A DNA stretch of 64,000 bases from Siphonodentalium dalli (taxonomy: Eukaryota > Mollusca > Scaphopoda > Gadilida > Siphonodentaliidae). Positions 2,238 through 63,242 of this stretch are shown here, piece after piece. The position numbers were made by a program, and so were the translations under genes. The first letter of the stretch is position 1. The number at the start of each line of letters is the position of its first letter. The stretch spans positions 35,188,732 to 35,252,731 of the forward strand of contig CP136065.1 in NCBI GenBank assembly GCA_032622095.1, in the 5' to 3' direction. Under the pieces are notes generated by a model that made no database searches, was not told where the DNA came from, and saw nothing but the letters and a program-made list of their open reading frames with translations.

Positions 2238-2247
2238 TGAGGTGTAA

Positions 2248-19736: not shown

Positions 19737-20180
19737 GTGGGGGGGGTGTGCTCAGATATAGAAGCAGATGACAATTTGAAAATCAACTGTTTCGGTACAT
19801 TTCAACAATCGTTCTGCCTGTGGGACGATTTCCGGCTCGTATGGTATAGCAAAGGCGTCAATGACACATTTTGGGCCATCGGAATATCTCACGGACAATT
19901 CAATCTGATTGAGCTCATCGAAAAAACCCCTAAATACCAAATTTCAGTTCGATATCTTGAAACATGTAAGAGAAATCCATCGACATTGTTTTCTATTCAC
20001 GGTAAATTCTCTTTGCAATTTGGCGAACCCCTTGAGGAACAGAGTTTGATTGACGTATGTTCACGTTGTCTACACCAGAGTTCCTCCGTCGTTTGGCGTC
20101 AAACCAAGTGTACGATGGACCAGGGCATGCCCGACTTGATAGGAATCGGCATTTATGCGATCAAATTCTGTTTCCTATGA
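19737..20180 (+). pseudogene. Copy 7 version of the possible exon, frame unbroken
   Basis: Same as the copy 6 version, with six A and an open frame of 147 codons from a non-standard start. Copies 6 and 7 also share a private C (CCAGTCCATTCTC) downstream, so the open frame here is probably one event spread by local duplication and not independently kept. Confidence 0.25.
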
Positions 20181-44100: not shown

Positions 44101-45614
44101 ATTAATTCCAACCCCGGTGGACTTCCCTCTTTTGTCGTGACCCTGCAAGTTAAGCAACAAGTACAAGCCTTGAAATAGTGTGTCGGTCATTTGCAGAATG
44201 AGGTTCCCAGGGGGTGAATTTAGTTATGCATAGCGGGCTAGCATCACCAAATTCACACTCTGTGAACCTCATTCTGCTGAGGTGTAAGCAGAATGAGGTC
44301 CCCAGAGGGTGAATTTGGTGTTGCTAGCCCGCAATGCGGGGTAGCATAACTAAATTCACCTTCTGGGGGACAGACGCACTATTTCAAGGCTAGAACAAGT
44401 AGTCACGGGCATTTTATAACGACCGTTGCCTTTGAAATAATGTTTAATTGTCGATTTATCGCCGACGCTTAAGAGAAACTCGATAACTGTTCAAAAGTGG
44501 TGTGAAAGATTTATGTGTGATTATTTAACAATACTGCAAAATCCCTTGGGAAATCGTGTCTGATCATATTTTTTCTACTAACAGTTGCTTAACTTGCAGC
44601 GTCACGGCAAGAGGGAAGTCGCCCCCATCTCGTCCACCGGGGTTGGAATTAATAAAGTGACTGAAATTTTGGCGAAAAACACTTTGCCAATACATTCTCT
44701 TATATATGGGTGATTCCCCCTTAAACGGACAAATTGATGTCTCGTGTACAATTGTTCCATAAAAATATGATTGTGCCACAAACAAGACCTATTGTGGCCT
44801 TCCATTTCACTGAGGAGCATGTGGCACAACGTTATGGTATAACAGTATTGTAATATATCAACACATGCCTTTAGTTACATGATCAAAACAACGAGAAAAC
44901 ACGAAAATCGCACTGTCTCATCGCCTAACTGCGAAATTTCATTTTATTCCTATTAAGTTATCTTACCTCTAATTGACAGAGAACGTGCAGTGTTATGTTA
45001 TTTCTTGGACTGTTTATCTATGAATATCATTTATGATGCACGTTTTTCGTGGTTTGATGTAAATATTGACTCTGAAACATCGAAAACCGCCTGTCTCGAG
45101 AAATATCCACACCGCGACATTATTTACAATATAGGCTATCCCGGTTCCATTTTAACTAAGGTCAACAACCTACCATATGCATAAGAAAGTTTTGCCTTTT
45201 GACATTTTGTTTTGAAGATTTTGGACAATATAAAGAATCGAAACACATGAAAAATGAGACGAAAATAAGTGTACCCTCCAGCGCACCTTAATTAATGTCC
45301 ACACCGCGATGCTATCAAAGGAACTATAAAATATGTCGGGAGACTACCAAAATTGCTCAAATAGTACACATGGGGTGAAGAATCGTGAATAAAAACGAAT
45401 GGACGCCTGACATAAACAGAAAATGAAAAAAAAATGAAGAAAATATAAAAATTGTCCACACCGCGACATGTCCACACCTCGACGCAGAATAACGTTACAG
45501 CCAGCCACAGACACATTTCACGATTAGAATATTTGGGTGGTTCTGTTGTAAAAGAGTCAACACGATGTACATACACATATAGTTCCTATTGGATGGGGGG
45601 GAATGAGTGAGTGA

Positions 45615-46058
45615 GTGGGGGGGGTGTGCTCAGATATAGAAGCAGATGACAATTTGAAAATCAACTGTTTCGGTACATTTCAACAATCGTTCTGCCTGTG
45701 GGACGATTTCCGGCTCGTATGGTATAGCAAAGGCGTCAATGACACATTTTGGGCCATCGGAATATCTCACGGACAATTCAATCTGATTGAGCTCATCGAA
45801 AAAACCCCTAAATACCAAATTTCAGTTCGATATCTTGAAACATGTAAGAGAAATCCATCGACATTGTTTTCTATTCACGGTAAATTCTCTTTGCAATTTG
45901 GCGAACCCCTTGAGGAACAGAGTTTGATTGACGTATGTTCACGTTGTCTACACCAGAGTTCCTCCGTCGTTTGGCGTCAAACCAAGTGTACGATGGACCA
46001 GGGCATGCCCGACTTGATAGGAATCGGCATTTATGCGATCAAATTCTGTTTCCTATGA
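45615..46058 (+). pseudogene. Copy 15 version of the possible exon, frame unbroken
   Basis: The third copy with the six-A allele and an open frame of 147 codons. Its sister copy 16, which shares at least five private variants with it, has the five-A allele. The homopolymer has therefore changed since those two copies separated. Copy 5 also has six A but carries a second frameshift, five C instead of four before TTGAGG (about 13559). Confidence 0.25.
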
Positions 46059-49000
46059 TCAGATCTGTACCTTGTATTCGTTGACCTCTTAGAGAGTTTG
46101 AACTCTAAGTCTCGCCCACAAAACACACAAATTTCCACCATCTATATTCAAATGGCCGTATCCCATAGACGTCTCAACGTGCGGAGCTGCATGTGCGATA
46201 TGTCGTTTGGACATATACATCGTCGGCTACTCCGTGATGTACGTGTTGATAATTCAACTGTTAAGGGGCAAATGGCAAACAAGTGGCAAAAGTTTGGTTG
46301 GTTTCCATTAATCATGATATTCGAATTAAACACACGTTTTGGAGAAAGAGCGAATTTGACAATGACGTCGCCCTGATTCAACCCAGAAACGTCATTAGCA
46401 CATGCCGTAATGAACGACCTTGATTGGCCTTGACCTTGCCCAATAATTTGGCCAAATGTCATTTTCGTGGTCACCAATATCTGTGCTACATACTCGCATA
46501 AAATTCATCGGCATGTGACATATGTCATTTTTTCAGAATTTTCTGGACGAATTTGTTCATTTAAGGGAGAATCACCCATATATATGCGAGCATCGCATAT
46601 AAAAGAGAATACCTTGACCTTGTAAGCCAGTGCATTCTCTTAAATATGCGAGACTCGCATATTTTAGAAACAACTGGCACAGGATCTTTATTGCTGCACC
46701 AGCCATGAATTCAGCCTGTGACGCCATGACACATTCTTGTTAAAGAGCCCACCGTCCAAACTATGATATTTCAGAGTGATTAATTGTTGTGTTTCAACAC
46801 TTATGGTGTGCATGTTGAGGTACCATTTTCAAGATTGTCGTGTGCAATCTTGCTCATTAGCACTTTTAGTAGAAAAAATATGATCAGACACGATTTCCCA
46901 AGGGATTTTGCAGTATTGTTAAATAATCACACATAAATCTTTCACACCACTTTTGAACAGTTATCGATTCTCTCTTAAGCGTCGGCGATAAGTCGACATT
47001 TAAACATTATTTCATTGCACGGTACACCGGTCGTTATAAAATGGCTCACCCCAATGCCCGTGACCACTTGTTCTAGCCTTGAAATTGTGCGTCTGTCCCC
47101 AGATGGTGAATTTAGTGATGCTACCCCGCTTATCGGGCTAGCATCACCAAATTCACCCTCTGGGGACCTCATTCTGCTTGCACCCCAGCAGAATGAGGTT
47201 CCCAGATGGTGAATTTGGTGATGCTAGCCCGCTATGCGGGGTAGCATCACTAAATTCACCCCCCCCCGGGACCTCATTCTGCAAATGCCAGACAAAGTGT
47301 TGTTTTTTCGACAAAATTTCAGTCACTTTATTAATTCCAACCCCGGTGGACTTCCCTCTTTTGTCGTGACCCTGCAAATTAAGCAACAAGTACAAGCCTT
47401 GAAATAGTGTGTCGGTCATTTGCAGAATGAGGTTCCCAGGGGTGAATTTAGTTATGCATAGCGGGCTAGCATCACCAAATTCACACTCTGTGAACCTCAT
47501 TCTGCTGAGGTGTAAGCAGAATGAGGTCCCCAGAGGGTGAATTTGGTGTTGCTAGCCCGCAATGCGGGGTAGCATAACTAAATTCACCTTCTGGGGGACA
47601 GACGCACTATTTCAAGGCTAGAACAAGTAGTCACGGGCATTTTATAACGACCGTTGCCTTTGAAATAATGTTTAATTGTCGATTTATCGCCGACGCTTAA
47701 GAGAAACTCGATAACTGTTCAAAAGTGGTGTGAAAGATTTATGTGTGATTATTTAACAATACTGCAAAATCCCTTGGGAAATCGTGTCTGATCATATTTT
47801 TTCTACTAACAGTTGCTTAACTTGCAGCGTCACGGCAAGAGGGAAGTCGCCCCCATCTCGTCCACCGGGGTTGGAATTAATAAAGTGACTGAAATTTTGG
47901 CGAAAAACACTTTGCCAATACATTCTCTTATATATGGGTGATTCCCCCTTAAACGGACAAATTGATGTCTCGTGTACAATTGTTCCATAAAAATATGATT
48001 GTGCCACAAACAAGACCTATTGTGGCCTTCCATTTCACTGAGGAGCATGTGGCACAACGTTATGGTATAACAGTATTGTAATATATCAACACATGCCTTT
48101 AGTTACATGATCAAAACAACGAGAAAACACGAAAATCGCACTGTCTCATCGCCTAACTGCGAAATTTCATTTTATTCCTATTAAGTTATCTTACCTCTAA
48201 TTGACAGAGAACGTGCAGTGTTATGTTATTTCTTGGACTGTTTATCTATGAATATCATTTATGATGCACGTTTTTCGTGGTTTGATGTAAATATTGACTC
48301 TGAAACATCGAAAACCGCCTGTCTCGAGAAATATCCACACCGCGACATTATTTACAATATAGGCTATCCCGGTTCCATTTTAACTAAGGTCAACAACCTA
48401 CCATATGCATAAGAAAGTTTTGCCTTTTGACATTTTGTTTTGAAGATTTTGGACAATATAAAGAATCGAAACACATGAAAAATGAGACGAAAATAAGTGT
48501 ACCCTCCAGCGCACCTTAATTAATGTCCACACCGCGATGCTATCAAAGGAACTATAAAATATGTCGGGAGACTACCAAAATTGCTCAAATAGTACACATG
48601 GGGTGAAGAATCGTGAATAAAAACGAATGGACGCCTGACATAAACAGAAAATGAAAAAAAAATGAAGAAAATATAAAAATTGTCCACACCGCGACATGTC
48701 CACACCTCGACGCAGAATAACGTTACAGCCAGCCACAGACACATTTCACGATTAGAATATTTGGGTGGTTCTGTTGTAAAAGAGTCAACACGATGTACAT
48801 ACACATATAGTTCCTATTGGATGGGGGGGGGAATGAGTGAGTGAGTGGGGGGGGTGTGCTCAGATATAGAAGCAGATGACAATTTGAAAATCAACTGTTT
48901 CGGTACATTTCAACAATCGTTCTGCCTGTGGGACGATTTCCGGCTCGTATGGTATAGCAAAGGCGTCAATGACACATTTTGGGCCATCGGAATATCTCAC

Positions 49001-51729
49001 GGACAATTCAATCTGATTGAGCTCATCGAAAAACCCCTAAATACCAAATTTCAGTTCGATATCTTGAAACATGTAAGAGAAATCCATCGACATTGTTTTC
49101 TATTCACGGTAAATTCTCTTTGCAATTTGGCGAACCCCTTGAGGAACAGAGTTTGATTGACGTATGTTCACGTTGTCTACACCAGAGTTCCTCCGTCGTT
49201 TGGCGTCAAACCAAGTGTACGATGGACCAGGGCATGCCCGACTTGATAGGAATCGGCATTTATGCGATCAAATTCTGTTTCCTATGATCAGATCTGTACC
49301 TTGTATTCGTTGACCTCTTAGAGAGTTTGAACTCTAAGTCTCGCCCACAAAACACACAAATTTCCACCATCTATATTCAAATGGCCGTATCCCATAGACG
49401 TCTCAACGTGCGGAGCTGCATGTGCGATATGTCGTTTGGACATATACATCGTCGGCTACTCCGTGATGTACGTGTTGATAATTCAACTGTTAAGGGGCAA
49501 ATGGCAAACAAGTGGCAAAAGTTTGGTTGGTTTCCATTAATCATGATATTCGAATTAAACACACGTTTTGGAGAAAGAGCGAATTTGACAATGACGTCGC
49601 CCTGATTCAACCCAGAAACGTCATTAGCACATGCCGTAATGAACGACCTTGATTGGCCTTGACCTTGCCCAATAATTTGGCCAAATGTCATTTTCGTGGT
49701 CACCAATATCTGTGCTACATACTCGCATAAAATTCATCGGCATGTGACATATGTCATTTTTTCAGAATTTTCTGGACGAATTTGTTCATTTAAGGGAGAA
49801 TCACCCATATATATGCGAGCATCGCATATAAAAGAGAATACCTTGACCTTGTAAGCCAGTGCATTCTCTTAAATATGCGAGACTCGCATATTTTAGAAAC
49901 AACTGGCACAGGATCTTTATTGCTGCACCAGCCATGAATTCAGCCTGTGACGCCATGACACATTCTTGTTAAAGAGCCCACCGTCCAAACTATGATATTT
50001 CAGAGTGATTAATTGTTGTGTTTCAACACTTATGGTGTGCATGTTGAGGTACCATTTTCAAGATTGTCGTGTGCAATCTTGCTCATTAGCACTTTTAGTA
50101 GAAAAAATATGATCAGACACGATTTCCCAAGGGATTTTGCAGTATTGTTAAATAATCACACATAAATCTTTCACACCACTTTTGAACAGTTATCGATTCT
50201 CTCTTAAGCGTCGGCGATAAGTCGACATTTAAACATTATTTCATTGCACGGTACACCGGTCGTTATAAAATGGCTCACCCCAATGCCCGTGACCACTTGT
50301 TCTAGCCTTGAAATTGTGCGTCTGTCCCCAGATGGTGAATTTAGTGATGCTACCCCGCTTATCGGGCTAGCATCACCAAATTCACCCTCTGGGGACCTCA
50401 TTCTGCTTGCACCCCAGCAGAATGAGGTTCCCAGATGGTGAATTTGGTGATGCTAGCCCGCTATGCGGGGTAGCATCACTAAATTCACCCCCCCCCCGGG
50501 ACCTCATTCTGCAAATGCCAGACAAAGTGTTGTTTTTTCGACAAAATTTCAGTCACTTTATTAATTCCAACCCCGGTGGACTTCCCTCTTTTGTCGTGAC
50601 CCTGCAAATTAAGCAACAAGTACAAGCCTTGAAATAGTGTGTCGGTCATTTGCAGAATGAGGTTCCCAGGGGTGAATTTAGTTATGCATAGCGGGCTAGC
50701 ATCACCAAATTCACACTCTGTGAACCTCATTCTGCTGAGGTGTAAGCAGAATGAGGTCCCCAGAGGGTGAATTTGGTGTTGCTAGCCCGCAATGCGGGGT
50801 AGCATAACTAAATTCACCTTCTGGGGGACAGACGCACTATTTCAAGGCTAGAACAAGTAGTCACGGGCATTTTATAACGACCGTTGCCTTTGAAATAATG
50901 TTTAATTGTCGATTTATCGCCGACGCTTAAGAGAAACTCGATAACTGTTCAAAAGTGGTGTGAAAGATTTATGTGTGATTATTTAACAATACTGCAAAAT
51001 CCCTTGGGAAATCGTGTCTGATTATATTTTTTCTACTAACAGTTGCTTAACTTGCAGCGTCACGGCAAGAGGGAAGTCGCCCCCATCTCGTCCACCGGGG
51101 TTGGAATTAATAAAGTGACTGAAATTTTGGCGAAAAACACTTTGCCAATACATTCTCTTATATATGGGTGATTCCCCCTTAAACGGACAAATTGATGTCT
51201 CGTGTACAATTGTTCCATAAAAATATGATTGTGCCACAAACAAGACCTATTGTGGCCTTCCATTTCACTGAGGAGCATGTGGCACAACGTTATGGTATAA
51301 CAGTATTGTAATATATCAACACATGCCTTTAGTTACATGATCAAAACAACGAGAAAACACGAAAATCGCACTGTCTCATCGCCTAACTGCGAAATTTCAT
51401 TTTATTCCTATTAAGTTATCTTACCTCTAATTGACAGAGAACGTGCAGTGTTATTTTATTTCTTGGACTGTTTATCTATGAATATCATTTATGATGCACG
51501 TTTTTCGTGGTTTGATGTAAATATTGACTCTGAAACATCGAAAACCGCCTGTCTCGAGAAATATCCACACCGCGACATTATTTACAATATAGGCTATCCC
51601 GGTTCCATTTTAACTAAGGTCAACAACCTACCATATGCATAAGAAAGTTTTGCCTTTTGACATTTTGTTTTGAAGATTTTGGACAATATAAAGAATCGAA
51701 ACACATGAAAAATGAGACGAAAATAAGTG

Positions 51730-53428
51730 TACCCTCCAGCGCACCTTAATTAATGTCCACACCGCGATGCTATCAAAGGAACTATAAAATATGTCGGGAG
51801 ACTACCAAAATTGCTCAAATAGTACACATGGGGTGAAGAATCGTGAATAAAAACGAATGGACGCCTGACATAAACAGAAAATGAAAAAAAAATGAAGAAA
51901 ATATAAAAATTGTCCACACCGCGACATGTCCACACCTCGACGCAGAATAACGTTACAGCCAGCCACAGACACATTTCACGATTAGAATATTTGGGTGGTT
52001 CTGTTGTAAAAGAGTCAACACGATGTACATACACATATAGTTCCTATTGGATGGGGGGGGGAATGAGTGAGTGAGTGGGGGGGGGGTGTGCTCAGATATA
52101 GAAGCAGATGACAATTTGAAAATCAACTGTTTCGGTACATTTCAACAATCGTCTGCCTGTGGGACGATTTCCGGCTCGTATGGTATAGCAAAGGCGTCAA
52201 TGACACATTTTGGGCCATCGGAATATCTCACGGACAATTCAATCTGATTGAGCTCATCGAAAAACCCCTAAATACCAAATTTCAGTTCGATATCTTGAAA
52301 CATGTAAGAGAAATCCATCGACATTGTTTTCTATTCACGGTAAATTCTCTTTGCAATTTGGCGAACCCCTTGAGGAACAGAGTTTGATTGACGTATGTTC
52401 ACGTTGTCTACACCAGAGTTCCTCCGTCGTTTGGCGTCAAACCAAGTGTACGATGGACCAGGGCATGCCCGACTTGATAGGAATCGGCATTTATGCGATC
52501 AAATTCTGTTTCCTATGATCAGATCTGTACCTTGTATTCGTTGACCTCTTAGAGAGTTTGAACTCTAAGTCTCGCCCACAAAACACATAAATTTCCACCA
52601 TCTATATTCAAATGGCCGTATCCCATAGACGTCTCAACGTGCGGAGCTGCATGTGCGATACGTCGTTTGGACATATACATCGTCGGCTACTCCGTGATGT
52701 ACGTGTTGATAATTCAACTGTTAAAGGGCAAATGGCAAACAAGTGGCAAAAGTTTGGTTGGTTTCCATTAATCATGATATTCGAATTAAACACACGTTTT
52801 GGAGAAAGAGCGAATTTGACAATGACGTCGCCCTGATTCAACCCAGAAACGTCATTAGCACATGCTGTAATGAACGACCTTGATTGGCCTTGACCTTGCC
52901 CAATAATTTGGCCAAATGTCATTTTCGTGGTCACCAATATCTGTGCTACATACTCGCATAAAATTCATCGGCATGTGACATATGTCATTTTTTCAGAATT
53001 TTCTGGACGAATTTGTTCATTTAAGGGAGAATCACCCATATATATGCGAGCATCGCATATAAAAGAGAATACCTTGACCTTGTAAGCCAGTGCATTCTCT
53101 TAAATATGCGAGACTCGCATATTTTAGAGACCGCTGGCACAGGATCTTTATTGCTGCACCAGCCATGAATTCAGCCTGTGACGCCATGACACATTCTTGT
53201 TAAAGAGCCCACCGTCCAAACTATGATATTTCAGAGTGATTAATTGTTGTGTTTCAACACTTATGGTGTGCATGTTGAGGTACCATTTTCAAGATTGTCG
53301 TGTGCAATCTTGCTCATTAGCACTTTTAGTAGAAAAAATATGATCAGACACGATTTCCCAAGGGATTTTGCAGTATTGTTAAATAATCACACATAAATCT
53401 TTCACACCACTTTTGAACAGTTATCGAT
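51730..53428. repeat. Truncated 17th monomer at the array edge
   Basis: The monomer runs normally for about 1.7 kb and breaks off after TTATCGAT, in the left arm of the fold-back element. It has private changes: loss of one T in CAATCGTCTGCC (about 52149-52152), CACATAAATTTCC in place of CACACAAATTTCC, and GACCGCTGGC. Edge copies of tandem arrays are typically more diverged, as seen here. Confidence 0.95.
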
Positions 53429-53436
53429 AGTAGTAA

Positions 53437-53712
53437 TGGGGGGGCACTATGGCCCAGTACCCCCCAGTGGGGGGCACTATGGCCCAGTACCCCCCAGTGG
53501 GGGGCACTATGGCCCAGTATCGAATACTGGACCATAGATCGTCCAGTATTCGATACTGGGCCATAGTGCCCCCCAGTGGGGGGCACTATGGCCCAGTATC
53601 GAAAACTGGACGATCTATGGTCCAGTATTCGATACTGGGCCATAGTGCCCCCACTGGGGGGTACTGGGCCATAGTGCCCCCCACTGATGGGTACTGGGCC
53701 ATAGTTCCCCCC
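53437..53712. repeat. 276-bp palindrome of eight 17-bp motifs at the array/element junction
   Basis: The motif GGCACTATGGCCCAGTA occurs at 53443, 53473, 53503 and 53582. Its complement TACTGGGCCATAGTGCC occurs at 53554, 53633 and 53662, with a degenerate copy at 53692. The order (+ + + - + - - -) is its own reverse complement around 53575, so the block folds into one large hairpin or cruciform with two inner palindromes, such as ATCGAATACTGGA paired with TCCAGTATTCGAT (53519-53554). GGGGGG and CCCCCC runs separate the motifs. Candidates are an element terminus, a replication origin or a fold-back insertion. Open frames here are low-complexity by-products of the repeats. Confidence 0.9.
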
Positions 53713-53857
53713 TGAGGATAGATATTCCTGTCATTGATGTGATATTTCTGATCGGAAAAAATGAAAATGGACTTAGAATTATTTTTTTTCAAAAGGAAAA
53801 TCTCACTTTGGAAAATATCAATTAGCAATCAAGAGTTTTTCTTTTCGAATATTTGGT
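53713..53857. other. Short AT-rich spacer, no gene seen
   Basis: This spacer lies between the palindrome and the first stem-loop. Its right part (AAGAGTTTTTCTTTTCGAA) is similar to 55690-55712 next to the other leftward stem-loop. Read on the minus strand it gives the purine-rich GAAAAGAAAAACTC, a possible histone downstream element. Confidence 0.5.
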
Positions 53858-53873
53858 GGCCCTGAAAAGGGCC
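53858..53873 (-). terminator. Histone-type mRNA 3' stem-loop of the OTU-like gene
   Basis: On the minus strand it reads GGCCCTTTTCAGGGCC followed by ACCA: a six-base-pair stem and a TTTC loop. This fits the metazoan replication-dependent histone consensus (GGYYYT-loop-ARRRCC followed by an ACCCA-like sequence). It starts about 20 nt after the stop codon, a spacing typical of histone genes. A purine-rich stretch follows, as expected for U7 snRNA pairing, though this is not tested. Confidence 0.8.
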
Positions 53874-53892
53874 GTTTTATTTTTGTTATAGT

Positions 53893-54357
53893 TTAGAATC
53901 CGCCACATTGAACTTCTTTGTTCGCCAAAACTTCAATTGATTTTTCTCCTCGCCTCATCCATATTTCGCATTCACAATAATGCTCGTGGCAAACGTGTGG
54001 GATCCACACTAGAGTTATTGATGACTTGAATCTTGGTGTTGATTTGTAGCCGCCTTTGGTAGCATCAAACATGACGATAGGTCGCTGTATAACAGTCGCC
54101 GCTAATTCAACCATCAATCTTGATTCAGCCAAAAGTGGTGTGCGCCGTAAATCTTGTGCCGACGCACCAAGTTCGTCACTCTCTGCGTAGTACAGGTCAA
54201 CTGCCGCATCTCTCAGAATCATCCATCCATCGGTCGTCCCGTAAACCCCGAGGCTGAGTGCCCTCCAAAACAGCGATATTTCTTCACCGTACACTGCTTT
54301 ACAGTATACCCCACCGGCCATTATCTCGTCAAGATCTGTTATGTTTACAGCAGTCAT
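53893..54357 (-). CDS. OTU-like protein with Ser at the nucleophile position (154 aa)
   Basis: The start chosen is the ATG at 54357, about 40 nt downstream of a TATA-like GATATATGTTC; an upstream in-frame ATG at 54432 lies before the TATA. The sibling gene at 55776-55964 starts at the matching ATTCAAAGATG. Residues 28-40 (SLFWRALSLGVYG), 84-99 (ELAATVIQRPIVMFDA) and the late HEHY (124-127) follow the order of OTU cysteine proteases, which remove ubiquitin. In that family the first block has Cys before LF; here it is Ser28, with an inserted Trp31. The likely His is H126. The protein is therefore either a catalytically dead OTU fold, for example a ubiquitin binder, or uses Ser. Similarity is weak and judged by eye. 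It is divergently paired with 54981-55469. Confidence 0.6.
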   Translation of the reverse strand: MTAVNITDLDEIMAGGVYCKAVYGEEISLFWRALSLGVYGTTDGWMILRDAAVDLYYAESDELGASAQDLRRTPLLAESRLMVELAATVIQRPIVMFDATKGGYKSTPRFKSSITLVWIPHVCHEHYCECEIWMRRGEKSIEVLANKEVQCGGF

Positions 54358-54980
54358 CTTTGAATGTAGAATAAGTCTGAAGATCCGTCTTGAACATATA
54401 TCACGATTGCGCGGGCGGTAGAGAAAGCACATAATACTTTGACGTTAAAATGACAAATGCTCCCTGACGTTGTGTTTCTTTTCAGTGCATTATCTGTTAG
54501 TTTCACCATTTCGATATGATATAGATTAAATTCATGATAGTATATGCAATTAATTAAGATATTTTAACATATGAATTCATCTTCGTTCATAAACGATGAC
54601 CAAGTAAAGTTATCAATTGTAATGATGAAGAAAAATGTTCAGTATGTTTTCTTGTGTTCAGTTTTATGTATAAAATATGTACATTTCCAAAACCAAAAAC
54701 TAGAAAAACATTCCATATTTGCCTAACGAGGCAACAAATATATCAATCATGTGTACCAAATAATAGATAATGATCTAACGAAATAAAAAACATTTGTTTG
54801 ATCGCTATGCAATAATGATCAAGAAAAATATGAATGCTGATCCGTCTCTGAAAAAACACAACGCCAGGAAACATTTGTCAATTTTAACGTCAATGCGACA
54901 TGTGATTTCATTGACGCCCGTGTCAAATGTATAAAAATATTTTCGAATTTGATCAACGTTACATTGCATTGCTATCAAAG
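54358..54980. promoter_or_regulatory. Divergent promoter of cassette 1
   Basis: This AT-rich region drives the OTU-like gene leftward and the 162-aa gene rightward. TATA-like boxes lie at 54392-54403 (minus strand, GATATATGTTC) and 54930-54939 (plus strand, TATAAAAATA), 40-50 nt from the start codons. Upstream of each TATA is a GCCCG element, with CTCTACCGCCCG on the minus side, and further out matched ACAACG-CAGGAA and CATTTGTCA blocks. The whole region is about 90 percent identical by eye to 55965-56580, so it was duplicated as a unit. Confidence 0.8.
54930..54939 (+). promoter_or_regulatory. TATA box of the 162-aa gene
   Basis: TATAAAAATA overlaps the ATG of a longer in-frame reading (54927), which argues that the longer reading is not used. 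The same box in cassette 2 is at 56541-56550. Confidence 0.7.
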
Positions 54981-55469
54981 ATGGATCCGTTAACAGAATT
55001 TCTTCAGAGTGAGATATACAGTAATCCTGTTGTACAGAATACATATGCGGCACCACAGTCAACAGGCCAAGCTAATACGACAATGACTATAGGTGGAGAT
55101 ACACTCATTTTAAAAGCGATTTTAGATGAACTGAGATGTCTTCGCAGGGATATTGACGTGAAAACACAAGTAACGCATCAAGAAGTAAAAGTGAATCTTC
55201 GTTTCGTTGCAGAAGAGATAGATATACCAATCAGGGTTCATGATGTTCAGAGATCGAAAGAACAGAAACAGATCAAAAAAGAAAAAATATTATCGGCGAA
55301 AGAAAAAGAACCTAAAAGTATCATGAAGCCTTCTACTGAGACAAAAGTCAGATTTCGTCTTCCTTGTAAAGAATCTAAAGATACAGAGAAAAGTGATGAA
55401 TTCGCAAAAGCTATTGGTTCTCATGGGAAAGATATGTCAAGATATAAGAAAAACACAAAACGATGTTAA
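54981..55469 (+). CDS. Unknown protein with basic, Lys/Glu-rich C-terminal half (162 aa)
   Basis: The start is the ATG at 54981, about 42 nt after the TATA box; the upstream ATG at 54927 overlaps that box. The N-terminal third is neutral (MDPLTEFLQSEIYS, then a Thr/Gln-rich stretch). Residues about 43-85 can form an amphipathic helix with LKAILDELRCLRRDID. From residue about 90 onward it is dominated by Lys, Glu, Arg and Ser and ends KKNTKRC, suggesting nucleic-acid binding or nuclear localisation. I do not recognise a family. It ends in a histone-type stem-loop, and its promoter is shared with the OTU-like gene. Confidence 0.7.
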   Translation: MDPLTEFLQSEIYSNPVVQNTYAAPQSTGQANTTMTIGGDTLILKAILDELRCLRRDIDVKTQVTHQEVKVNLRFVAEEIDIPIRVHDVQRSKEQKQIKKEKILSAKEKEPKSIMKPSTETKVRFRLPCKESKDTEKSDEFAKAIGSHGKDMSRYKKNTKRC

Positions 55470-55491
55470 AGTCAGATGATAATTTTAAAAC

Positions 55492-55507
55492 GGCCCTTTT
55501 CAGGGCC
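55492..55507 (+). terminator. Histone-type mRNA 3' stem-loop of the 162-aa gene
   Basis: GGCCCTTTTCAGGGCC followed by ACACACA begins 22 nt after the stop. The downstream CCCAAAAGGTTACTCTTTC is repeated almost exactly after the cassette 2 stem-loop, so it is part of the duplicated 3' module and may be the processing element. Confidence 0.85.
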
Positions 55508-55718
55508 ACACACATTTCCCAAAAGGTTACTCTTTCATTGCTGAAAAAATCAAAAACACGATTGTTCAATTTATATTTTATTCAACAACAAATATTTGCA
55601 AGTATATTTTGTTTTAAATTATTCGTGGCGTGATTTTTTCAAAACAAAACATAGGGTACAAAGAACATTATTAGTTATTAAGCAATGCTAAAAGTTTTTC
55701 TTTTTGAAAAAATTGGTT
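55508..55718. other. Spacer between cassettes with an orphan poly(A) signal
   Basis: No gene is seen. The first 80 bases match 56966-57045. They include CACGATTGTTCAATT and a TTTATT (55577-55582, AATAAA on the minus strand), which at the other site serves the zinc-knuckle gene. Here no leftward gene precedes it, so this is probably a leftover of that gene's 3' end carried along in the cassette duplication. Confidence 0.6.
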
Positions 55719-55734
55719 GGTCCTGAAAAGGACC
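55719..55734 (-). terminator. Second (distal) histone-type stem-loop of the 62-aa gene
   Basis: On the minus strand it reads GGTCCTTTTCAGGACC followed by AACCA. Relative to the other loops it has a compensating change (C to T paired with G to A) that keeps the stem intact. A purine-rich AAAAAGAAAAAC follows, as after the cassette 1 leftward gene. Confidence 0.75.
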
Positions 55735-55746
55735 GTTTTTGTTTTT

Positions 55747-55762
55747 GGCCCTGAAAAGGGCC
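55747..55762 (-). terminator. First (proximal) histone-type stem-loop of the 62-aa gene
   Basis: The minus-strand GGCCCTTTTCAGGGCC starts 14 nt after the stop at 55776. It is followed by AAAAACAAAAAC, not an ACCA-type tail, so the distal loop may be the better processing site. Confidence 0.75.
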
Positions 55763-55775
55763 GTTTTGTATGGCA

Positions 55776-55964
55776 TCAAAGTTCACGCCACGATTTTCTT
55801 TTGAGACTTTTGCTTTTGTTCCAACGCTGTTGTTTTTTGCATATTTGCATAACCAGTTTTGCACTGGCGGTTACTTCTTTTGCGTGTTCGCCCCGCATTA
55901 TCTGGGGTGTTAGCCCTATCGTTCCTCTTAGTATAGACATCAACGGTTCGGGGGTTTCGGACAT
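55776..55964 (-). CDS. Small basic protein of unknown function (62 aa)
   Basis: This is the first ATG after the minus-strand TATA-like box (56004-56013). The leader and start context (ATTCAAAGATG) match those of the OTU-like gene in cassette 1, which selects this frame over an overlapping 86-codon frame that begins upstream of the TATA. The product has a neutral N-terminal half (MSETPEPLMSILRG) and a very basic C-terminus (KKQQRW, SLKRKSWREL). I recognise no family. It occupies the position held by the OTU-like gene in cassette 1 but shows no similarity to it. It may be a truncated remnant, yet its promoter and stem-loops are intact. Confidence 0.55.
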   Translation of the reverse strand: MSETPEPLMSILRGTIGLTPQIMRGEHAKEVTASAKLVMQICKKQQRWNKSKSLKRKSWREL

Positions 55965-56580
55965 CTTTGAATGCAGAATAAAAATTGTTCACGGCCGTGT
56001 TTGAACATATATTACGATTGCGCGGGCGGTAGAGAAAGCACATGTCGCATTGACATTAAAAATGACAAATGCTTCCTGACGTTGTGTTTCTTTACAGTGC
56101 ATTATCTGTAGTTTTCACTATTTCGATATGTTATAGATTAAATTCATGATAGTATATGCAATTAATTAAGATGTTTTAACATATGAATTCATCTTCGTTC
56201 ATAAACGATGACCAAGTAAAGTTATCGATTGTAATGATGAAGAAAAATGTTCAGTATGTTTTCTTGTGTTCAGTTTTATGTATAAAATATGTACATCTCC
56301 AAAAACAAAACTAGAAAAACATTCCATATTTTCCTAACGAGGTAACAAATATATCAATCATGTGTACCAAATAATAGATAATGATCTAACGAAATAAAAA
56401 ACATTTGTTTGATCGCTATGCAATAATGATCAAGAAAAATATGAATGCTGATCCGTCTCTGAAAAAACACAACGCCAGGAAACATTTGTCAATTTTAACG
56501 TCAATGCGACATGTGATTTCTCTACCGCCCGTGTCAAATGTATAAAAATATTTTCACTTTTTCAGTGAACTTCATTCATT
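55965..56580. promoter_or_regulatory. Divergent promoter of cassette 2, with inverted promoter arms
   Basis: This is a near-identical duplicate of 54358-54980. The outer parts are inverted copies of each other: 56003-56092 on the minus strand and 56461-56550 on the plus strand. They share AACACAACG-CAGGAA, CATTTGTCA, GTCAATGCGACATGTG, TTTCTCTACCGCCCG and a TATA box in the same order and spacing. Each gene therefore has its own complete proximal promoter. TATA boxes lie at about 56004-56013 (minus) and 56541-56550 (plus), each about 40 nt from its ATG. Confidence 0.8.
56541..56550 (+). promoter_or_regulatory. TATA box of the 116-aa gene
   Basis: TATAAAAATA lies 31 nt before the ATG at 56581, so the predicted leader is very short. 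CTCTACCGCCCG sits just upstream. Confidence 0.7.
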
Positions 56581-56931
56581 ATGCCGTCTCTAAAGAAATT
56601 TTTCAAGAAGCTATGGAGGAAGAGAGATTCGTCAGAGGAGACGAAAATCAGAACCTATAGGAAATGGCAGGATTCTCCTGAACAAAAGGTGGTGCAGAAA
56701 CAGATGTTAACAGATTTTCTGGCTCGGCGACGACCATCGGCTGAAGTATGTGATCAAGAACCAAGCAATCTTGATCTCGTGGAGATCTTGTCACAGATCT
56801 CGAAGAAAGATCTGTGCAATGCAGCAATTGACAGCTTCGCTCAGGCTGCTGCGGCGCACAGATCAAACCCTACTTGGTCTGTGACAATTAATCCCAACGG
56901 GATATATCCTGATTTGGCAGAATTTTTATGA
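56581..56931 (+). CDS. Unknown protein with strongly basic N-terminus (116 aa)
   Basis: The only ATG close to the TATA box is at 56581. Residues 1-15 (MPSLKKFFKKLWRKR) form a basic amphipathic segment that could bind membrane, nucleic acid or act as a nuclear signal. The C-terminal half (NLDLVEILSQISKKDL, then an Ala-rich helix) looks like a small helical domain. I recognise no family, and it has no evident similarity to the 162-aa protein that fills the equivalent slot in cassette 1. It ends in the best histone-type stem-loop of the set. Confidence 0.7.
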   Translation: MPSLKKFFKKLWRKRDSSEETKIRTYRKWQDSPEQKVVQKQMLTDFLARRRPSAEVCDQEPSNLDLVEILSQISKKDLCNAAIDSFAQAAAAHRSNPTWSVTINPNGIYPDLAEFL

Positions 56932-56949
56932 ATTCTGGAAAAGAAAAAC

Positions 56950-56965
56950 GGCCCTTTTCAGGGCC
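56950..56965 (+). terminator. Canonical histone-type mRNA 3' stem-loop of the 116-aa gene
   Basis: AAAACGGCCCTTTTCAGGGC continues CACCCA, so the stem, loop and ACCCA cleavage tail all match the metazoan histone consensus. It begins 18 nt after the stop. CCCCAAAAAGGTTACTCTTT follows. No AATAAA on the plus strand is seen between the stop and the loop. Confidence 0.9.
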
Positions 56966-57652: not shown

Positions 57653-57967
57653 TTTTGTCTTGAGTTTTTGTCAGCAAAAAATATTGTGACTGGCTTCTTC
57701 GGAGTTGAAGTGTAAAGTGTATAATTACACAATTTTAACACCTGCTTTTATAGCAGTCACGATGAAAAATGCTATAAAAGCAAGTGTAAAATTGTGTAAT
57801 TATACACTTTACACTTCAACTCCGAAGAAGCCAGTCGCAATATTTTTTGCTGACAAAAACTCAAGACAAAAATGTTTAAGAGAATCAAAAGACCTGTTTC
57901 AGACGACTCCGCCAGCGAAGAAGATATTGTTAGAAAAAGACCAAGGCCTGCAGTTATTGAAGAGAGC
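57558..57967. repeat. Inverted repeat with 198-bp arms: divergent promoter, leaders and 32 shared codons
   Basis: The arms are 57558-57755 and 57770-57967, separated by 14 bp. They differ by only about two substitutions and one 1-bp indel (GTGTTAAAA versus GTGTAAAA). All differences lie upstream of the ATGs, and the 32 codons are identical. The arms start at TGCTATAAAAGCA and stop inside codons 32-33. Such near identity means either recent duplication or ongoing gene conversion. Confidence 0.95.
57745..57780. promoter_or_regulatory. Back-to-back TATA boxes for the zinc-knuckle and polymerase genes
   Basis: TATAAAAG occurs at 57773-57780 (plus) and 57745-57752 (minus), only 20 bp apart and about 95-100 nt from each ATG. 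The symmetric arrangement implies equal expression of both genes from one locus. It differs in sequence from the cassette promoters, which suggests a different timing class. Confidence 0.7.
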
Positions 57968-60900
57968 GAAATGGAAACTGATGAGGCAGAAAGTGAAGAG
58001 AGCGATATGGAAACTGATGAGGCAGAAAGTGAAGAGAGCGATATGGAAACTGATGAGGCAGAAAGTGAAGAGAGCGATATGGAAACTGATGGAGGCGAAA
58101 GTGAAGAAAGTTCTAGTGATGGTCAGATTGGACGCGGTCGAAGACAGAATAGAGAAATTGGTGGGAAGAGAAAGAGAAGTCTGGCTAGAGAGCGTGTTGT
58201 GTTCAATCCAACAAAATATTTCAAATTGGAGCTGAACTCAGAGAAATTTTCCAGAAAATTTAAATCAGCATCACGACAATTTGGTGTGAAATTCGAGAAA
58301 TTTACAGATCCAATCGAAAACATTCCAGAGATATTTGAGAAGTTGACAGAAGAATTGAAACAGAAATGTTCAGCAAATGAGAAGACAAGAATCAGAGTTA
58401 CGATAAATCGTCCAGGACTTGATATGAACATTTTCATTCCATTCACAAAAGCCAGTGAATTGAATGGTGAGACACTCATGGATAATATTCAAAATGTGGT
58501 TCAATCAAATGCAGACTTTACAATTCATGACGGTGCACTCAATTTCGAAATCTTCGTTACAGATATTCCGGAAGGTGGTACACGACACTCACTACATTAT
58601 GGACCATTTGCAGACAAGAACAAGCTTACAAAAGTGAAAAGAAGTATTGTCCGGATTGAAAATGCTGATGATGTTATGTGTATGGCAAGATCTATTGTCG
58701 TCGGAATGTGTAAGGCAGATAGTGATGGATCTGCGTGCTGGTCAAAGAAATGGAAAAGAATAAGACAATCAATATACACAGCACAAACAGATGCAGCAAA
58801 AAATCTACTCAACCGTGCTGGTATTCCACACGATACAGTTTGCAGTATCAATGAGTTCCACAAGATTCAAGAAATATTGTATCCAGAATATGTTGTGAAA
58901 ATTTACAATGAATTTGCTGGCGCTGGATTTCTATTTGAACCTGCAGAAATGTGTTCGGAGAGCAAATGTGTACACATCTACTACAACAACAATCACTTCG
59001 ACACCATAACATCAATCAAAGGATTTCTAGGCACCAGCTACTACTGCGAATTCTGTGACATTGGATTCAAAAGTCGTGGCGATCATCGATGCAGATTTGT
59101 TTGTGCATGCTGGTCATTGACACAGTGTAATTTCACAAATTTGGTGAAGTGTAGAACGTGTCGACGATCATTCAGAAGTAAATCTTGTTTCGACAACCAT
59201 TTGAAGACGGAAGGAAAACAGAAAAGAAAAATATGTGATTTGGTTCAACTATGCAACATTTGTGATGAAGAATTTCTCATCAATAAATCAAACAGACATA
59301 TATGTGCGGGGTTGAAGAAATGCAAACATTGCAAAGAAATCGTTGAAGCAGATCACAGGTGCTACATTCCAAAATATGAATCACCGGAAAAGAAACCTGC
59401 AAAGATTCCATATGTATTCTTTGACTTTGAATGCAGACAAGACACAGGTGTTCATATTCCAAACTTCTGTGTTGCACATACCGCTTGTGGAGATTGCATG
59501 TGCAAACCAATCGAAGAAAAATGTGAAACATGCGGACCGGATTCCAGAGAATTTGTATTCAAGGGTGACAACGTTTTAACAGACTTCACAAACTGGTTAT
59601 TCCATCAAGATCACAAAGGATGTGTTGCAATAGCACATAATGCTCAGGGATACGATGCACAGTTTCTACTTCAAGCACTCATACAAAGTGGAATTCATAA
59701 ACCAGAACTGATCATGAATGGAAACAAAATTCTCAGTTTAAAATGCAACAGCGTGAAAGTTATTGATTCTCTGAGTTTTCTGATGATGCCGCTTTCAAAA
59801 TTTCCACAAACTTTTCAGCTGAATGAGATGGCAAAAGGACACTTTCCACATTGGGCGAATTCACCAAAGTTTCAAAATTACATTGGACCTTACTTGGCTT
59901 GTGATTACTACAAACCAGATATGATGAGCGTGGAAAATCGAGAGAAATTCTTTGAATGGTACAATGAGAAAATAGAAAATTATGCGATATTCAACTTCCA
60001 AGAAGAGATAGAGAAGTACTGCAAATCAGACGTGGATATTCTTCGCCGTGGATGTGGAAAATTCAGGAAATACATATTGGAAACAGAACAGATTGACCCG
60101 TTCATTGAGTCAATAACATTGGCACAAGTTTGCAATTTGGCATGGAGGAAGAATTCAATGCCAGAGAAAACAATTGGAATCATTCCAGATGGTGGATACC
60201 CATGTGCTAAAAACTATTCCATGAAAGCGATACGTTGGCTTCAACATATATCATTGTCACGTATGATAACAATCAAGCATGCTTTGAATGGAGGAGAAAT
60301 CAAGATTGGTGGACACTACGTCGATGGATATGAGGAAGCCACAAGAACAGTTTTTGAGATGAATGGATGTCTGTTTCATGGATGTCCAAAATGTTACAAC
60401 AACAGACAATACAAGAATCCCTATACGATGCTCACCATGGAAGAATTATATACAAGAACCCAACAGAAGAAAGATGAACTGGAAAGTCTTGGTTACAGAG
60501 TTGAATCAATTTGGGAGCATCAGATCGACGAAAGAATGAAATCGGATGTGAAATTCAAACAACAAATGGAATCTTTCTACAAACATCGAGACCCCATTTT
60601 GCCAAGAGAAGCATTGTTTGGTGGACGTACAAATGCCATCAAATTGTACGAGGAAATTGATCAAGATTCCACAAAAGAAATCAAGTTCATCGATGTGTGT
60701 TCGTTGTATCCATTTTGCAACAAATATAAATTCTACCCTGTTGGACATCCAGAAATTTTGAGCCAAGAGCAGATCGATCAAGAACACATTAGAGACTATG
60801 CGGGGCTTGTTAAATGTACAATTTTACCACCATCGAAATTGTATATTCCAGTTCTACCGATTCATTGTAACAAGAAAATGGTTTTTACTCTGTGCAACAC

Positions 60901-61945
60901 TTGTGCCATCAATGAGAACGAGGCATGTAACCATTCAGAAGAAGATCGAGCTATAACCGGAGTGTGGACCACGCCAGAATTATTCAAAGCAATGGATGTT
61001 GGCTACAAAATACTTGATGTGTACCAAATTTGGCATTGGACAGATTGGACAGATGAAATATACAAATCCTATATCGATAAACATCTAAAGATCAAACAGG
61101 AATGTAGTGGTTATCCATTTGGTGTTGAGACAGAAGAACAGAAACAAAAGTTTGTACAGGATTATTATGCAGCTGAGGGTATAAAATTGGAGAACATCGA
61201 GAAGAATCCAGGAAAACGTCAAATATCTAAAATTATGATTAATTGTATATGGGGTAAGAACGCACAAAGAAATCTTATGTCAAAAACAGAGTATGTGGAT
61301 AAACCATCACGTTATTTTGAATTGCTTACTAGTAACAATATAATTGTTCAAAATGTTACACTTCTTGATGGTGACAAATTCATTCTGGTAAATTATGTTG
61401 ACATCTTAGATAATATTGAACCTCATCATTCAGCAAATGTTGTTGTTGCTTCTTTTGTTACAGCGTATGCAAGATTACAATTGTATAAAGTTTTAGAAAA
61501 ACTTGGAGATAGAGTGCTGTATTTTGATACAGACAGCTGTATGTATGTCAGTGATCCATCAAAGAAGAACATCAAAACTATCGAAGGAAGATTGGGGAAA
61601 TGGAGCGACGAACATCCAGATGCAAAGATTGTCAAATTTGTTGGACTTGGGCCAAAGAACTACGGATATGAATACATCAAAGATGGGAGAAGATACACCA
61701 AATGTAAGGTAAAAGGTATCACTCTTGATTACAGCACAAGTCAAAAAGTTAATTTTGAAACAATGGTACAATGTGTTAATGATCGTGAAAATTTCAAAAC
61801 TGTTGTTGAGTATCCTTCCAGAATTAAAAGACAAAAGAACCATCACTTGATTAGTGAGTGTCAAACCAAAACTTTCAGATCGGTGTACACAAAACGAAAA
61901 CTCGTCAATGGTATTCATACATACCCATACGGATGGAGATGTTGA
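57872..61945 (+). CDS. Protein-primed family B DNA polymerase, Polinton/adintovirus type (1357 aa)
   Basis: Replicates the element, probably from a protein primer. Residues 1-32 are shared with the zinc-knuckle protein, and 31-78 are four acidic 12-residue repeats (ESDMETDEAESE). Residues 266-378 have an OTU-like layout (Cys270 in DDVMCMARSIVVG, His375 in NNNHFDTI). Cys/His pairs from 392 to 497 suggest zinc fingers. The 3'-5' exonuclease motifs are FFDFE (516-520), HNAQGYD (589-595) and YCKSD (716-720). Residues 828-882 (NGCLFHGCPKCY, then LGYRVESIWEH) resemble the Vsr-like nuclease insertion of Polinton polymerases. Polymerase motifs are A DVCSLYP (941-947), B KIMINCIWGK (1120-1129) and C YFDTDS (1217-1222). 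The C-terminus (VYTKRKL...YPYGW) is typical, so the gene looks full length. Motif B has Cys-Ile-Trp where Ser-x-Tyr is usual. Confidence 0.96.
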   Translation: MFKRIKRPVSDDSASEEDIVRKRPRPAVIEESEMETDEAESEESDMETDEAESEESDMETDEAESEESDMETDGGESEESSSDGQIGRGRRQNREIGGKRKRSLARERVVFNPTKYFKLELNSEKFSRKFKSASRQFGVKFEKFTDPIENIPEIFEKLTEELKQKCSANEKTRIRVTINRPGLDMNIFIPFTKASELNGETLMDNIQNVVQSNADFTIHDGALNFEIFVTDIPEGGTRHSLHYGPFADKNKLTKVKRSIVRIENADDVMCMARSIVVGMCKADSDGSACWSKKWKRIRQSIYTAQTDAAKNLLNRAGIPHDTVCSINEFHKIQEILYPEYVVKIYNEFAGAGFLFEPAEMCSESKCVHIYYNNNHFDTITSIKGFLGTSYYCEFCDIGFKSRGDHRCRFVCACWSLTQCNFTNLVKCRTCRRSFRSKSCFDNHLKTEGKQKRKICDLVQLCNICDEEFLINKSNRHICAGLKKCKHCKEIVEADHRCYIPKYESPEKKPAKIPYVFFDFECRQDTGVHIPNFCVAHTACGDCMCKPIEEKCETCGPDSREFVFKGDNVLTDFTNWLFHQDHKGCVAIAHNAQGYDAQFLLQALIQSGIHKPELIMNGNKILSLKCNSVKVIDSLSFLMMPLSKFPQTFQLNEMAKGHFPHWANSPKFQNYIGPYLACDYYKPDMMSVENREKFFEWYNEKIENYAIFNFQEEIEKYCKSDVDILRRGCGKFRKYILETEQIDPFIESITLAQVCNLAWRKNSMPEKTIGIIPDGGYPCAKNYSMKAIRWLQHISLSRMITIKHALNGGEIKIGGHYVDGYEEATRTVFEMNGCLFHGCPKCYNNRQYKNPYTMLTMEELYTRTQQKKDELESLGYRVESIWEHQIDERMKSDVKFKQQMESFYKHRDPILPREALFGGRTNAIKLYEEIDQDSTKEIKFIDVCSLYPFCNKYKFYPVGHPEILSQEQIDQEHIRDYAGLVKCTILPPSKLYIPVLPIHCNKKMVFTLCNTCAINENEACNHSEEDRAITGVWTTPELFKAMDVGYKILDVYQIWHWTDWTDEIYKSYIDKHLKIKQECSGYPFGVETEEQKQKFVQDYYAAEGIKLENIEKNPGKRQISKIMINCIWGKNAQRNLMSKTEYVDKPSRYFELLTSNNIIVQNVTLLDGDKFILVNYVDILDNIEPHHSANVVVASFVTAYARLQLYKVLEKLGDRVLYFDTDSCMYVSDPSKKNIKTIEGRLGKWSDEHPDAKIVKFVGLGPKNYGYEYIKDGRRYTKCKVKGITLDYSTSQKVNFETMVQCVNDRENFKTVVEYPSRIKRQKNHHLISECQTKTFRSVYTKRKLVNGIHTYPYGWRC
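57962..58105 (+). repeat. Four 36-bp repeats encoding an acidic tract in the polymerase
   Basis: Each unit encodes the 12 residues ESDMETDEAESE with small changes in the first and last unit. The inverted repeat ends within the first six bases of the first unit, so this tract is specific to the polymerase copy. Length probably varies between copies of the element. Confidence 0.9.
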
Positions 61946-62591: not shown

Positions 62592-63242
62592 ATGGAAGAA
62601 TCTTTACTTTTCCAACATCCGTGTAATTTCTTTATCAGCGGACCTAGTGGATCAGGTAAAACAGAATTTGTTAAAAAAGTTATTGAATTTAAACACGATT
62701 TATTCCAAACACCACCAAAGAAAATAGTTTGGTGTTACAAAGAATGGCAAGACACATACAATCGTATAAAAGAAATTGATAACGTTAAGTTTATCGATGG
62801 TATTCCAGACGATGATGAGGAAATTGTATCAGATAAATCATTTCCTCATCTTGTTGTTTTCGATGACATGATGGGGGAACAAGATGAAGACAAAATAATG
62901 CTTTGGTTTACTAGAAAAGGTCATCATCGAAATGCTTCAATAATTTACATTACTCAAAACATGTTCCAAAAATCAAAAAGTAGCAGAACTATAAGTTTGA
63001 ATGCACACTACATGGTTTTATTTCAAAGCGTTCGAGATAAAAATCAAATAAAAGTTTTGGCTCATCAAATGCAAACCAATCATTTGAAACAAGCATACGA
63101 AGATGCAACTTCAATAAATCATGGATATATTTTAGTAGATTTTCATCCTAGAACAGAAAATTATTTGCGAATTAGAACTGATATTTTCCATAAATGGTTG
63201 ACAGCTAATGACCGAGGTCCTGTCATATATTCAAAAGTATAA
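62592..63242 (+). CDS. Genome-packaging ATPase, A32/FtsK-HerA type (216 aa)
   Basis: Residues 17-24 GPSGSGKT are the Walker A motif, and 86-94 HLVVFDDMM is Walker B with adjacent acids Asp91 and Asp92. IIYITQNMF (117-125) is the sensor-like Gln motif that follows in this family. An Arg-rich stretch (RKGHHR, 108-113) is a candidate arginine finger. The length fits the compact packaging ATPases of Polintons, adintoviruses and virophages, which pump dsDNA into preformed capsids. Its presence implies the element is, or descends from, a particle-forming virus. The N-terminus is short, with the P-loop starting at residue 17, which supports the chosen ATG. Confidence 0.93.
   Translation: MEESLLFQHPCNFFISGPSGSGKTEFVKKVIEFKHDLFQTPPKKIVWCYKEWQDTYNRIKEIDNVKFIDGIPDDDEEIVSDKSFPHLVVFDDMMGEQDEDKIMLWFTRKGHHRNASIIYITQNMFQKSKSSRTISLNAHYMVLFQSVRDKNQIKVLAHQMQTNHLKQAYEDATSINHGYILVDFHPRTENYLRIRTDIFHKWLTANDRGPVIYSKV

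Follow-up and report, generated by a model that had tools for sequence, protein, structure and literature searches.

Histone-type 3' ends on non-histone genes

Four small genes of a Polinton/adintovirus-like element in the scaphopod Siphonodentalium dalli were followed by stem-loops of the type that ends replication-dependent histone mRNAs. The element lies partly in the window, which is the whole 64,000-nt stretch of DNA analysed here (GenBank assembly GCA_032622095.1, contig CP136065.1, positions 35,188,732 to 35,252,731 of the forward strand). The four genes, called A to D, form one block within it (Table 1). We judged it probable from the sequences that these genes carry functional, host-derived histone-type 3' ends. 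In the best reading of the comparisons, the ends appear to be kept by selection. They most likely came from host histone genes, because most of them matched those of the host and because some copies of the element carried a host-like histone H4 with its own 3' end.

Each of the four genes was a single uninterrupted open reading frame (ORF) with a stem-loop shortly 3' of the stop codon. The stop and the stem were separated by 19 bases in A, 22 in B and 18 in D, and by 13 and 41 bases for the two hairpins of C. Each of the five hairpins had a 6-bp stem without mismatch, and its loop read TTTC on the coding strand of the preceding gene. At 55719 the stem read GGTCC...GGACC, which was a compensated pair. 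The first-pass annotation had reported five stem-loops on the coding strand after four small genes, and this was borne out by their position, by shuffling and by Rfam. Its gaps of 14-22 and 42 nt were right within one base on recounting (13-22 and 41), and the ACCCA tail that it named at the 56950 copy was present.

Four of the five hairpins passed the 34-bit cut-off of the Rfam model RF00032 (Histone3), with 37.1-42.6 bits. Their matches spanned all 46 model positions, including the downstream part. The proximal hairpin of gene C (55747) fell below the cut-off, and the distal hairpin of the same gene occupied the place of its downstream element. The sequence 3' of the stem was ACCCA in gene D, ACCAA in A, ACACA in B and AACCA at the distal hairpin of C. 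As a chance control, 100 dinucleotide shuffles of the window were scanned. They gave on average 0.24 matches with at most three mismatches to the 16-mer and 0.11 matches to a degenerate pattern, with a maximum of two in any shuffle. A chance origin of the hairpins was ruled out by the shuffles together with the Rfam match.

Another explanation was that the palindromes work at the DNA level or as terminators (in replication, in packaging or as a stop between converging genes) and merely resemble histone ends. Perfect G+C-rich palindromes between convergent genes, as at the ends of B and C (55492 and 55719-55762), would suit such a role. However, the TTTC loop was always in the coding sense, and the AAAC 5' flank, the ACC-type tail and the downstream element agreed with the histone RNA model. 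In addition, no converging gene was recognised beside the hairpin of gene A. The half of the element with the integrase and the putative capsid genes, located in the next 9.9 kb of the chromosome (L036), had no hairpin. We regarded this explanation as very improbable.

None of A to D matched a Pfam family at E ≤ 1, so the histone families were unmatched as well. By sequence, A to D resemble histone genes in their 3' ends and are not histone genes themselves. Scores between pairs of the four proteins were mostly within those of shuffles, and the closest pair was B-C (8 of 200 shuffles as high). These results were consistent with the earlier description of four unrelated proteins, none of them a histone. 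No homologues of A and B were found among 5.8 billion proteins at the thresholds used. Single-sequence structure models of A and D were uninformative (mean predicted local distance difference test, pLDDT, 36.9 and 48.2). On inspection gene A looked OTU-like, but neither Pfam nor PDB profiles gave a match to support this, and it is not claimed. The ratios of nonsynonymous to synonymous substitution rates (dN/dS) among open copies of A, B and D had medians as expected for coding genes (Table 1). The comparison was restricted to copies whose open frame had roughly the expected length and to pairs with six or more synonymous differences, a choice that favours purifying selection.

Conservation among copies and families

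Copies were sought in the 2.23-Gb assembly with the 19-mer GGCCCTTTTCAGGGCCACC as the motif. It occurred 1,400 times genome-wide, including the host histone cluster and other repeats, and a reversed-letter control gave no occurrence. Among the first 100 places, all on C1, 60 formed 30 minus/plus pairs 1.5-3.8 kb apart, and no plus/minus pair was found. A and D of the window show this minus/plus order. We fetched 20 stretches and 20 further pieces. Those chosen by the motif all came from the first 100 matches on C1, while L036 and L056-L059 (from a search with H4) were chosen otherwise, and the counts below are not genome-wide rates. Nine of the first 20 stretches had homologues of the polymerase and of all four small genes, and six had one to three of A to D. 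Two belonged to a second family, and the remaining three (L027-L029) had hairpins with none of A to D or the polymerase. Three shorter copies (L021, L026 and L044) had a block of A and D only, about 1.5 kb apart, which indicated that the number of gene pairs varies among copies.

The second family comprised L030, L031, L047, L052 and L053. Its polymerase segments were 42-69% identical where present, and its gene A was 29-37% identical in four of the five. A third family of gene A was found in L043, L045 and L055. When the A proteins were aligned with that of the window, family 2 was 34% and family 3 was 25-26% identical. At intact ends, the hairpin stood 19 nt after A in family 1 and 13 nt after A in families 2 and 3. 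As a side observation, the second-family polymerase gene of L037 was interrupted by about 3.2 kb (L037:2795-6013).

Intact hairpins were counted in stretches L016-L059 at ends where the last residues of the gene aligned, with family 3 left out. In family 1 they were present at 19 of 21 ends of A and at every end of B (16), C (9) and D (14). In family 2 the counts were 2/3 for A, 4/4 for B and 4/4 for D. The genes whose usual tail was unlike the fetch motif (B, C, and family-2 A and B) had the hairpin at 31 of 32 ends. After removal of two motif-matching ends among those 31, 29 of 30 kept it.

The 3' end of gene B was compared in 17 copies. None of the 16 hairpin columns was variable, against 28 of the 49 columns beyond the downstream element. 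The coding end had 8 variable columns of 90, the stop and spacer 4 of 25, and the downstream element 4 of 18 (7 columns with gaps). In ten copies of gene C, the proximal hairpin had no variable column and the distal hairpin had two (16 columns each). The sequence beyond them also varied little (2 of 30 columns), so gene C adds little on conservation. An Rfam scan of 14 further stretches at the gathering score gave eight Histone3 matches, one each in L042, L028, L030, L031, L047, L052, L053 and L043.

Relation to host histone genes

A tandem cluster of host histone genes was located at C9:143.80-144.27 Mb by searching with the DNA of a copy that carried H4. Two pieces of it (L056 and L057) contained H2A and H2B in divergent pairs, plus H4. 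Host histone genes with complete frames had the same 16-mer 25-27 nt after the stop, followed by ACCAAA...AAAAGATAGCTCTTT or variants. One H4 of the cluster was split after its first codons by an insert of about 300 bp (L056:209-517), and short separate matches at three places in the cluster suggest further split H4s.

The tails of the element were scored against host H4, H2A and H2B tails, with 500 dinucleotide shuffles for each of 11 sequences. No shuffle scored as high for six tails, namely those of window A, window B, L025 A and three of family 2. The ends of the element mostly resembled the host H4, H2A and H2B ends.

Since the host histone genes carry the same 16-mer, and H2A and H2B are likewise divergent, the block might have nothing to do with the element and instead be DNA of the host histone cluster or histone pseudogenes. 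However, the block lay on C5, within an element that has inverted ends and is flanked by a 6-bp duplication, and the cluster was found on C9. In addition, A to D matched no histone family, and the dN/dS values of A, B and D were well below 1 between dispersed open copies. Host cluster DNA as the source of the block, which the first-pass annotation had named as a case that would speak against it, was rejected on location and copy structure, and we gave it practically no chance.

The capture of host H4 by copies of the element had not been noticed in the first-pass annotation. In a DNA search, the element promoter joined to H4 was matched at nine dispersed loci with 90-100% identity, each match covering at least 549 of the 551 nt. 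Three of these loci were read (L042:1853-2161, L058:1887-2226 and L059:1293-1601), and the hairpin was present in all three. L042 and L059 had open H4-like frames of 103 amino acids, and L058 was frameshifted. Changes that were common to the three element H4s and absent from the host H4 included an extra R in VLRK and RQIRT for RQGRT. In L042 the sequence from the last ~37 nt of the leader to the downstream element, with the ORF and the hairpin between, was that of host H4, and what preceded it was that of the element. This structure and the shared changes indicated that the element took up a host histone gene, 3' end included, at least once, and that this gene then spread. From these sequences, H4 capture is a possible route by which the other genes obtained their 3' ends.

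The capture also bears on a further explanation, in which the hairpins are functionless remnants of captured histone genes and the transcripts undergo normal cleavage and polyadenylation. It would fit with host histone capture being real, with AATAAA upstream of the gene A hairpin and downstream of those of gene C, and with the one or two mismatches in some hairpins. However, the hairpin of gene B was invariant while its flanks varied, and hairpins were kept in three families in which gene A was only 25-34% identical. In addition, neither AATAAA nor ATTAAA occurred on the coding strand in the 470 nt that follow gene B or in the 2.3 kb that follow gene D (none before 59282). We considered the remnant explanation unlikely.

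Distant relatives and points against functional, host-derived histone-type ends

Four Polinton-related contigs were found in bacterial genome records (29,886 bases), and one of them, L002, had a Histone3 match. Its hairpin stood 28 nt after a two-finger C2H2 gene, beyond the integrase and a TATA-binding-protein gene, and its polymerase was 35% identical in the best segment. Zinc-finger genes are reported in some adintoviruses, according to the available part of PMC11071296. The TATA-binding-protein homologue of L002 lay between the integrase and the zinc-finger gene (L002:7189-7695; PF00352, E 1.2e-27). Polymerase searches of IMG/VR gave no close relative, with short weak matches only (L005-L007).

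The proposal in the first-pass annotation that Polinton/adintovirus-like genes carry histone-type 3' ends was supported by Rfam, by the copies, by two diverged families, by the likeness of the tails and by one distant contig. The comparison with related elements that it suggested came out in part, since loops were found in copies and families and in only one of the four distant contigs.

Several results weighed against functional, host-derived 3' ends. Gene A had AATAAA between its stop and its hairpin, as host H2B does, and gene C had AATAAA 136 nt beyond the distal hairpin. Because copies were fetched by a hairpin motif, the counts for A and D are biased, and the three ends without an intact hairpin bore one with one or two mismatches. 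In family 2 the hairpins of gene A and most of those of gene B missed the Rfam cut-off, and one of the three family-3 stretches scanned reached it. The likeness of the tails was weaker for C distal (2 of 500 shuffles as high), window D (6), family 3 (6) and L023 B (12). The L002 tail showed no likeness to host tails (330 of 500); it comes from another host. The other three distant contigs had no Histone3 match at E ≤ 1, one of them being 3.6 kb of polymerase only. Scans of IMG/VR for the exact hairpin pattern gave none, which is weak either way since no close polymerase relative is present there. A search for host U7 small nuclear RNA with RF00066 gave no match, with 65 of 541,557 candidates scored and a model that recovered nothing in any of the 14 control genomes. 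Finally, the upstream regions of A, B, C and D scored within shuffles against the host H4 and H2A/H2B promoters. The element promoters were rejected as histone promoters on these scores, and only the 3' ends look histone-derived.

Two gene pairs in a common shell

A/B and C/D were two divergent gene pairs. The region between A and B was 93% identical to that between C and D (Table 1). The 3' flanks were also alike between the pairs, with 87% identity over 120 columns for B and D and 70% over 112 columns for A and C. The proteins were not clearly alike, and this suggested a regulatory shell repeated around different cargo. The ORFs within the shell were most likely exchanged, or have diverged past recognition, as far as their sequences tell. 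The first-pass annotation did not mention these two pairs with a common promoter and common 3' ends around unrelated ORFs.

Proposed mechanism and comparison with known systems

In histone mRNA, the stem-loop binding protein SLBP stays on the hairpin, there is no poly(A), and the message is stable and translated in S phase. The 3' ends of replication-dependent histone mRNAs (RF00032; SLBP, U7 small nuclear ribonucleoprotein, snRNP) share with those described here the stem-loop, its flanks, the short distance from the stop and the downstream element. The ends described here differ in standing on non-histone genes of a mobile element. According to the available part of PMC7026596, histone mRNA pairs with U7 and is cleaved 4-5 nt beyond the hairpin, and the defining traits include SLBP binding and the lack of poly(A). 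Such stem-loops near the stop are also described for histone mRNAs of a bivalve, Lucina, in the part of PMC6210712 that is available.

The predicted mRNAs of A to D would end in an SLBP-type stem-loop 13-22 nt after the stop, with a purine-rich downstream element about 12-30 nt beyond the stem-loop. Such transcripts would be cut by U7 snRNP and bound by SLBP, would lack poly(A), and would thus be most abundant in S phase. Ordinary poly(A) ends would serve the genes for polymerase, ATPase and virion proteins, and there would then be two expression classes. A likely advantage would be that early helper proteins are made while the nucleus replicates and is rich in nucleotides. We lean slightly towards a wider interpretation, in which an animal Polinton lineage adopted the histone mRNA system as an expression class. 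Its early genes would be non-polyadenylated, restricted to S phase and translated with SLBP; the 3' shell would have come from capture of a host histone gene, with the ORF exchanged afterwards.

The element shared with adintoviruses and animal Polintons the PolB, the integrase with rve and chromodomain, the A32-like ATPase, the inverted ends and the 6-bp duplication, and also had a putative adenain-like protease just under the Pfam cut-off. It differed from them in that its accessory genes had histone-type 3' ends. As far as available, the main texts of PMC11071296 and PMC11071308 do not contain the word stem-loop. The H4-bearing copies resembled the bracovirus H4 and other single viral histones (available part of PMC9145170), in that a virus-derived element carries one host-like H4. 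Unlike in that case, the histone-type 3' end was found here also on unrelated genes. In the same paper, the available main text contains neither 'stem-loop' nor 'polyadenyl'. Among the matches listed in the open-access literature, no title or abstract opening described histone stem-loops on Polinton, adintovirus or other viral genes. One further paper, PMC12220804, contains the words histone, stem-loop and Polinton; most subscription journals are uncovered, so priority is not established.

In animals the stem-loop end is taken as private to histone mRNAs, and those induced in S phase are given as the only non-polyadenylated protein-coding transcripts (PMC12819152, in its available part). If our interpretation is true, animal protein-coding mRNAs outside the histones would also use this end. 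It would mean that a histone 3' end can be borrowed to place other genes under the control of DNA replication. In addition, A to D would be natural non-histone reporters for SLBP/U7 processing, and they would suggest a way for endogenous Polintons to tie their expression to S phase.

The element and its surroundings

The hairpin block was located in an element of about 17.2 kb on C5, the length being taken from coordinates. The element was inserted inside the last unit of a host tandem array in the window. In L036 the array set in again directly after position 6736. Inverted terminal repeats AGTAGTAATGGGGGG and the 6-bp duplication ATCGAT bounded the element. Polintons have 6-bp target duplications. 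The gene content and these ends identified the element, by sequence, as Polinton/adintovirus-like.

Table 1. Features of the window, numbered from its first base
Positions	Strand	Feature	Remarks
1..53428	.	Host tandem array, ~3,232-bp unit, ~16.5 copies	Full copies 99.3-99.8% identical when one unit was compared with the window by BLAST
53423..53428	.	Left copy of the 6-bp target site duplication, ATCGAT	Same array positions on both sides of the element
53429..53717	.	Element left end: AGTAGTAATGGGGGG..., then GC-rich palindromic repeats	Outer part recurs in inverted orientation at the right end
53830..53857	-	Gene A tail with downstream-element-like stretch (ACCAAATATTCGAAAAGAAAAACTCTTG)	Against host histone tails, best score 18; 0/500 shuffles as high
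53858..53873	-	Histone-type stem-loop, gene A	RF00032 41.8 bits
53893..54357	-	Gene A, 154 amino acids, no known family	Relatives 25-34% identical in two other element families; dN/dS median 0.38, 78 pairs
54358..54980	.	Region between divergent genes A and B, putative promoter	93% identical to the C/D region, 595 columns
54981..55469	+	Gene B, 162 amino acids (from MDPLTEF), no known family	dN/dS median 0.40, 36 pairs
55492..55507	+	Histone-type stem-loop, gene B	RF00032 40.1 bits
55508..55541	+	Gene B tail with downstream-element-like stretch (...CCCAAAAGGTTACTCTTTC)	0/500 shuffles as similar to host histone tails
55719..55734	-	Distal stem-loop, gene C, compensated GGTCC/GGACC	RF00032 37.1 bits
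55747..55762	-	Proximal stem-loop, gene C; without ACC tail or downstream element of its own	RF00032 22.2 bits; found at 9/9 C ends
55776..55964	-	Gene C, 62 amino acids, no known family	
55965..56580	.	Region between divergent genes C and D, putative promoter	
56581..56931	+	Gene D, 116 amino acids, no known family	dN/dS median 0.22, 53 pairs
56950..56965	+	Histone-type stem-loop, gene D, then ACCCA	RF00032 42.6 bits
57077..57652	-	Zinc-knuckle-like gene, 191 amino acids, without stem-loop	zf-CCHC_3 in Pfam at E 1e-4, short of the curated cut-off
57872..61945	+	Family B DNA polymerase, 1357 amino acids, without stem-loop	PF03175 (DNA_pol_B_2) E 6.9e-39; aligned with 23 relatives
62592..63242	+	A32-like packaging ATPase, without stem-loop	PF04665 E 1.3e-8

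The nearest named relatives of the polymerase were from bivalves, behind 18 better-scoring matches. It was 50% identical to that of Mercenaria over 62% of the query, and about 39% identical to those of Saccostrea and Ostrea over 99% of the query. The integrase (L036:1125-2216) matched rve (E 1.2e-12) and, at its C-terminus, Chromo (E 7e-4, below the curated cut-off). An rve integrase with a C-terminal chromodomain is given as an adintovirus/Polinton feature in the available part of PMC11071296. The putative adenain-like protease in L036 matched PF00770 with E 5e-4 and 20.2 bits, against a cut-off of 21.3. Two ORFs (L036:3721-5025 and 2487-3338) were compatible in size and place with a double jelly-roll major capsid protein and a penton and had no Pfam match. 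The zinc-knuckle gene had AATAAA on its own strand at 57040-57045, 31 nt after the stop.

A 189-nt inverted repeat (57549-57737 and 57787-57975 of the window, 98% complementary) was observed between the zinc-knuckle gene and the polymerase gene. As a result of this repeat, the two divergent genes begin with the same 32 residues. At the element's left end, the GC-rich palindromic repeats were nested (53439-53717). The host array at 1-53428 held internal inverted copies of about 87% and gave no Rfam match.

In the three stretches that lacked A to D and the polymerase, histone-type hairpins were arranged in tandem with a 32-nt period (L027:2962-3010, L028:2625-2704 and L029:2616-2663). No ORF of at least 25 amino acids ended within 120 nt upstream of them, and one of the arrays (L028) passed Rfam Histone3. 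The hairpins adjoined the 5' side of an ORF beginning MPPKKSN, which may be Helitron-like. These sequences may represent a second kind of repeat with histone hairpins, here at the 5' end.

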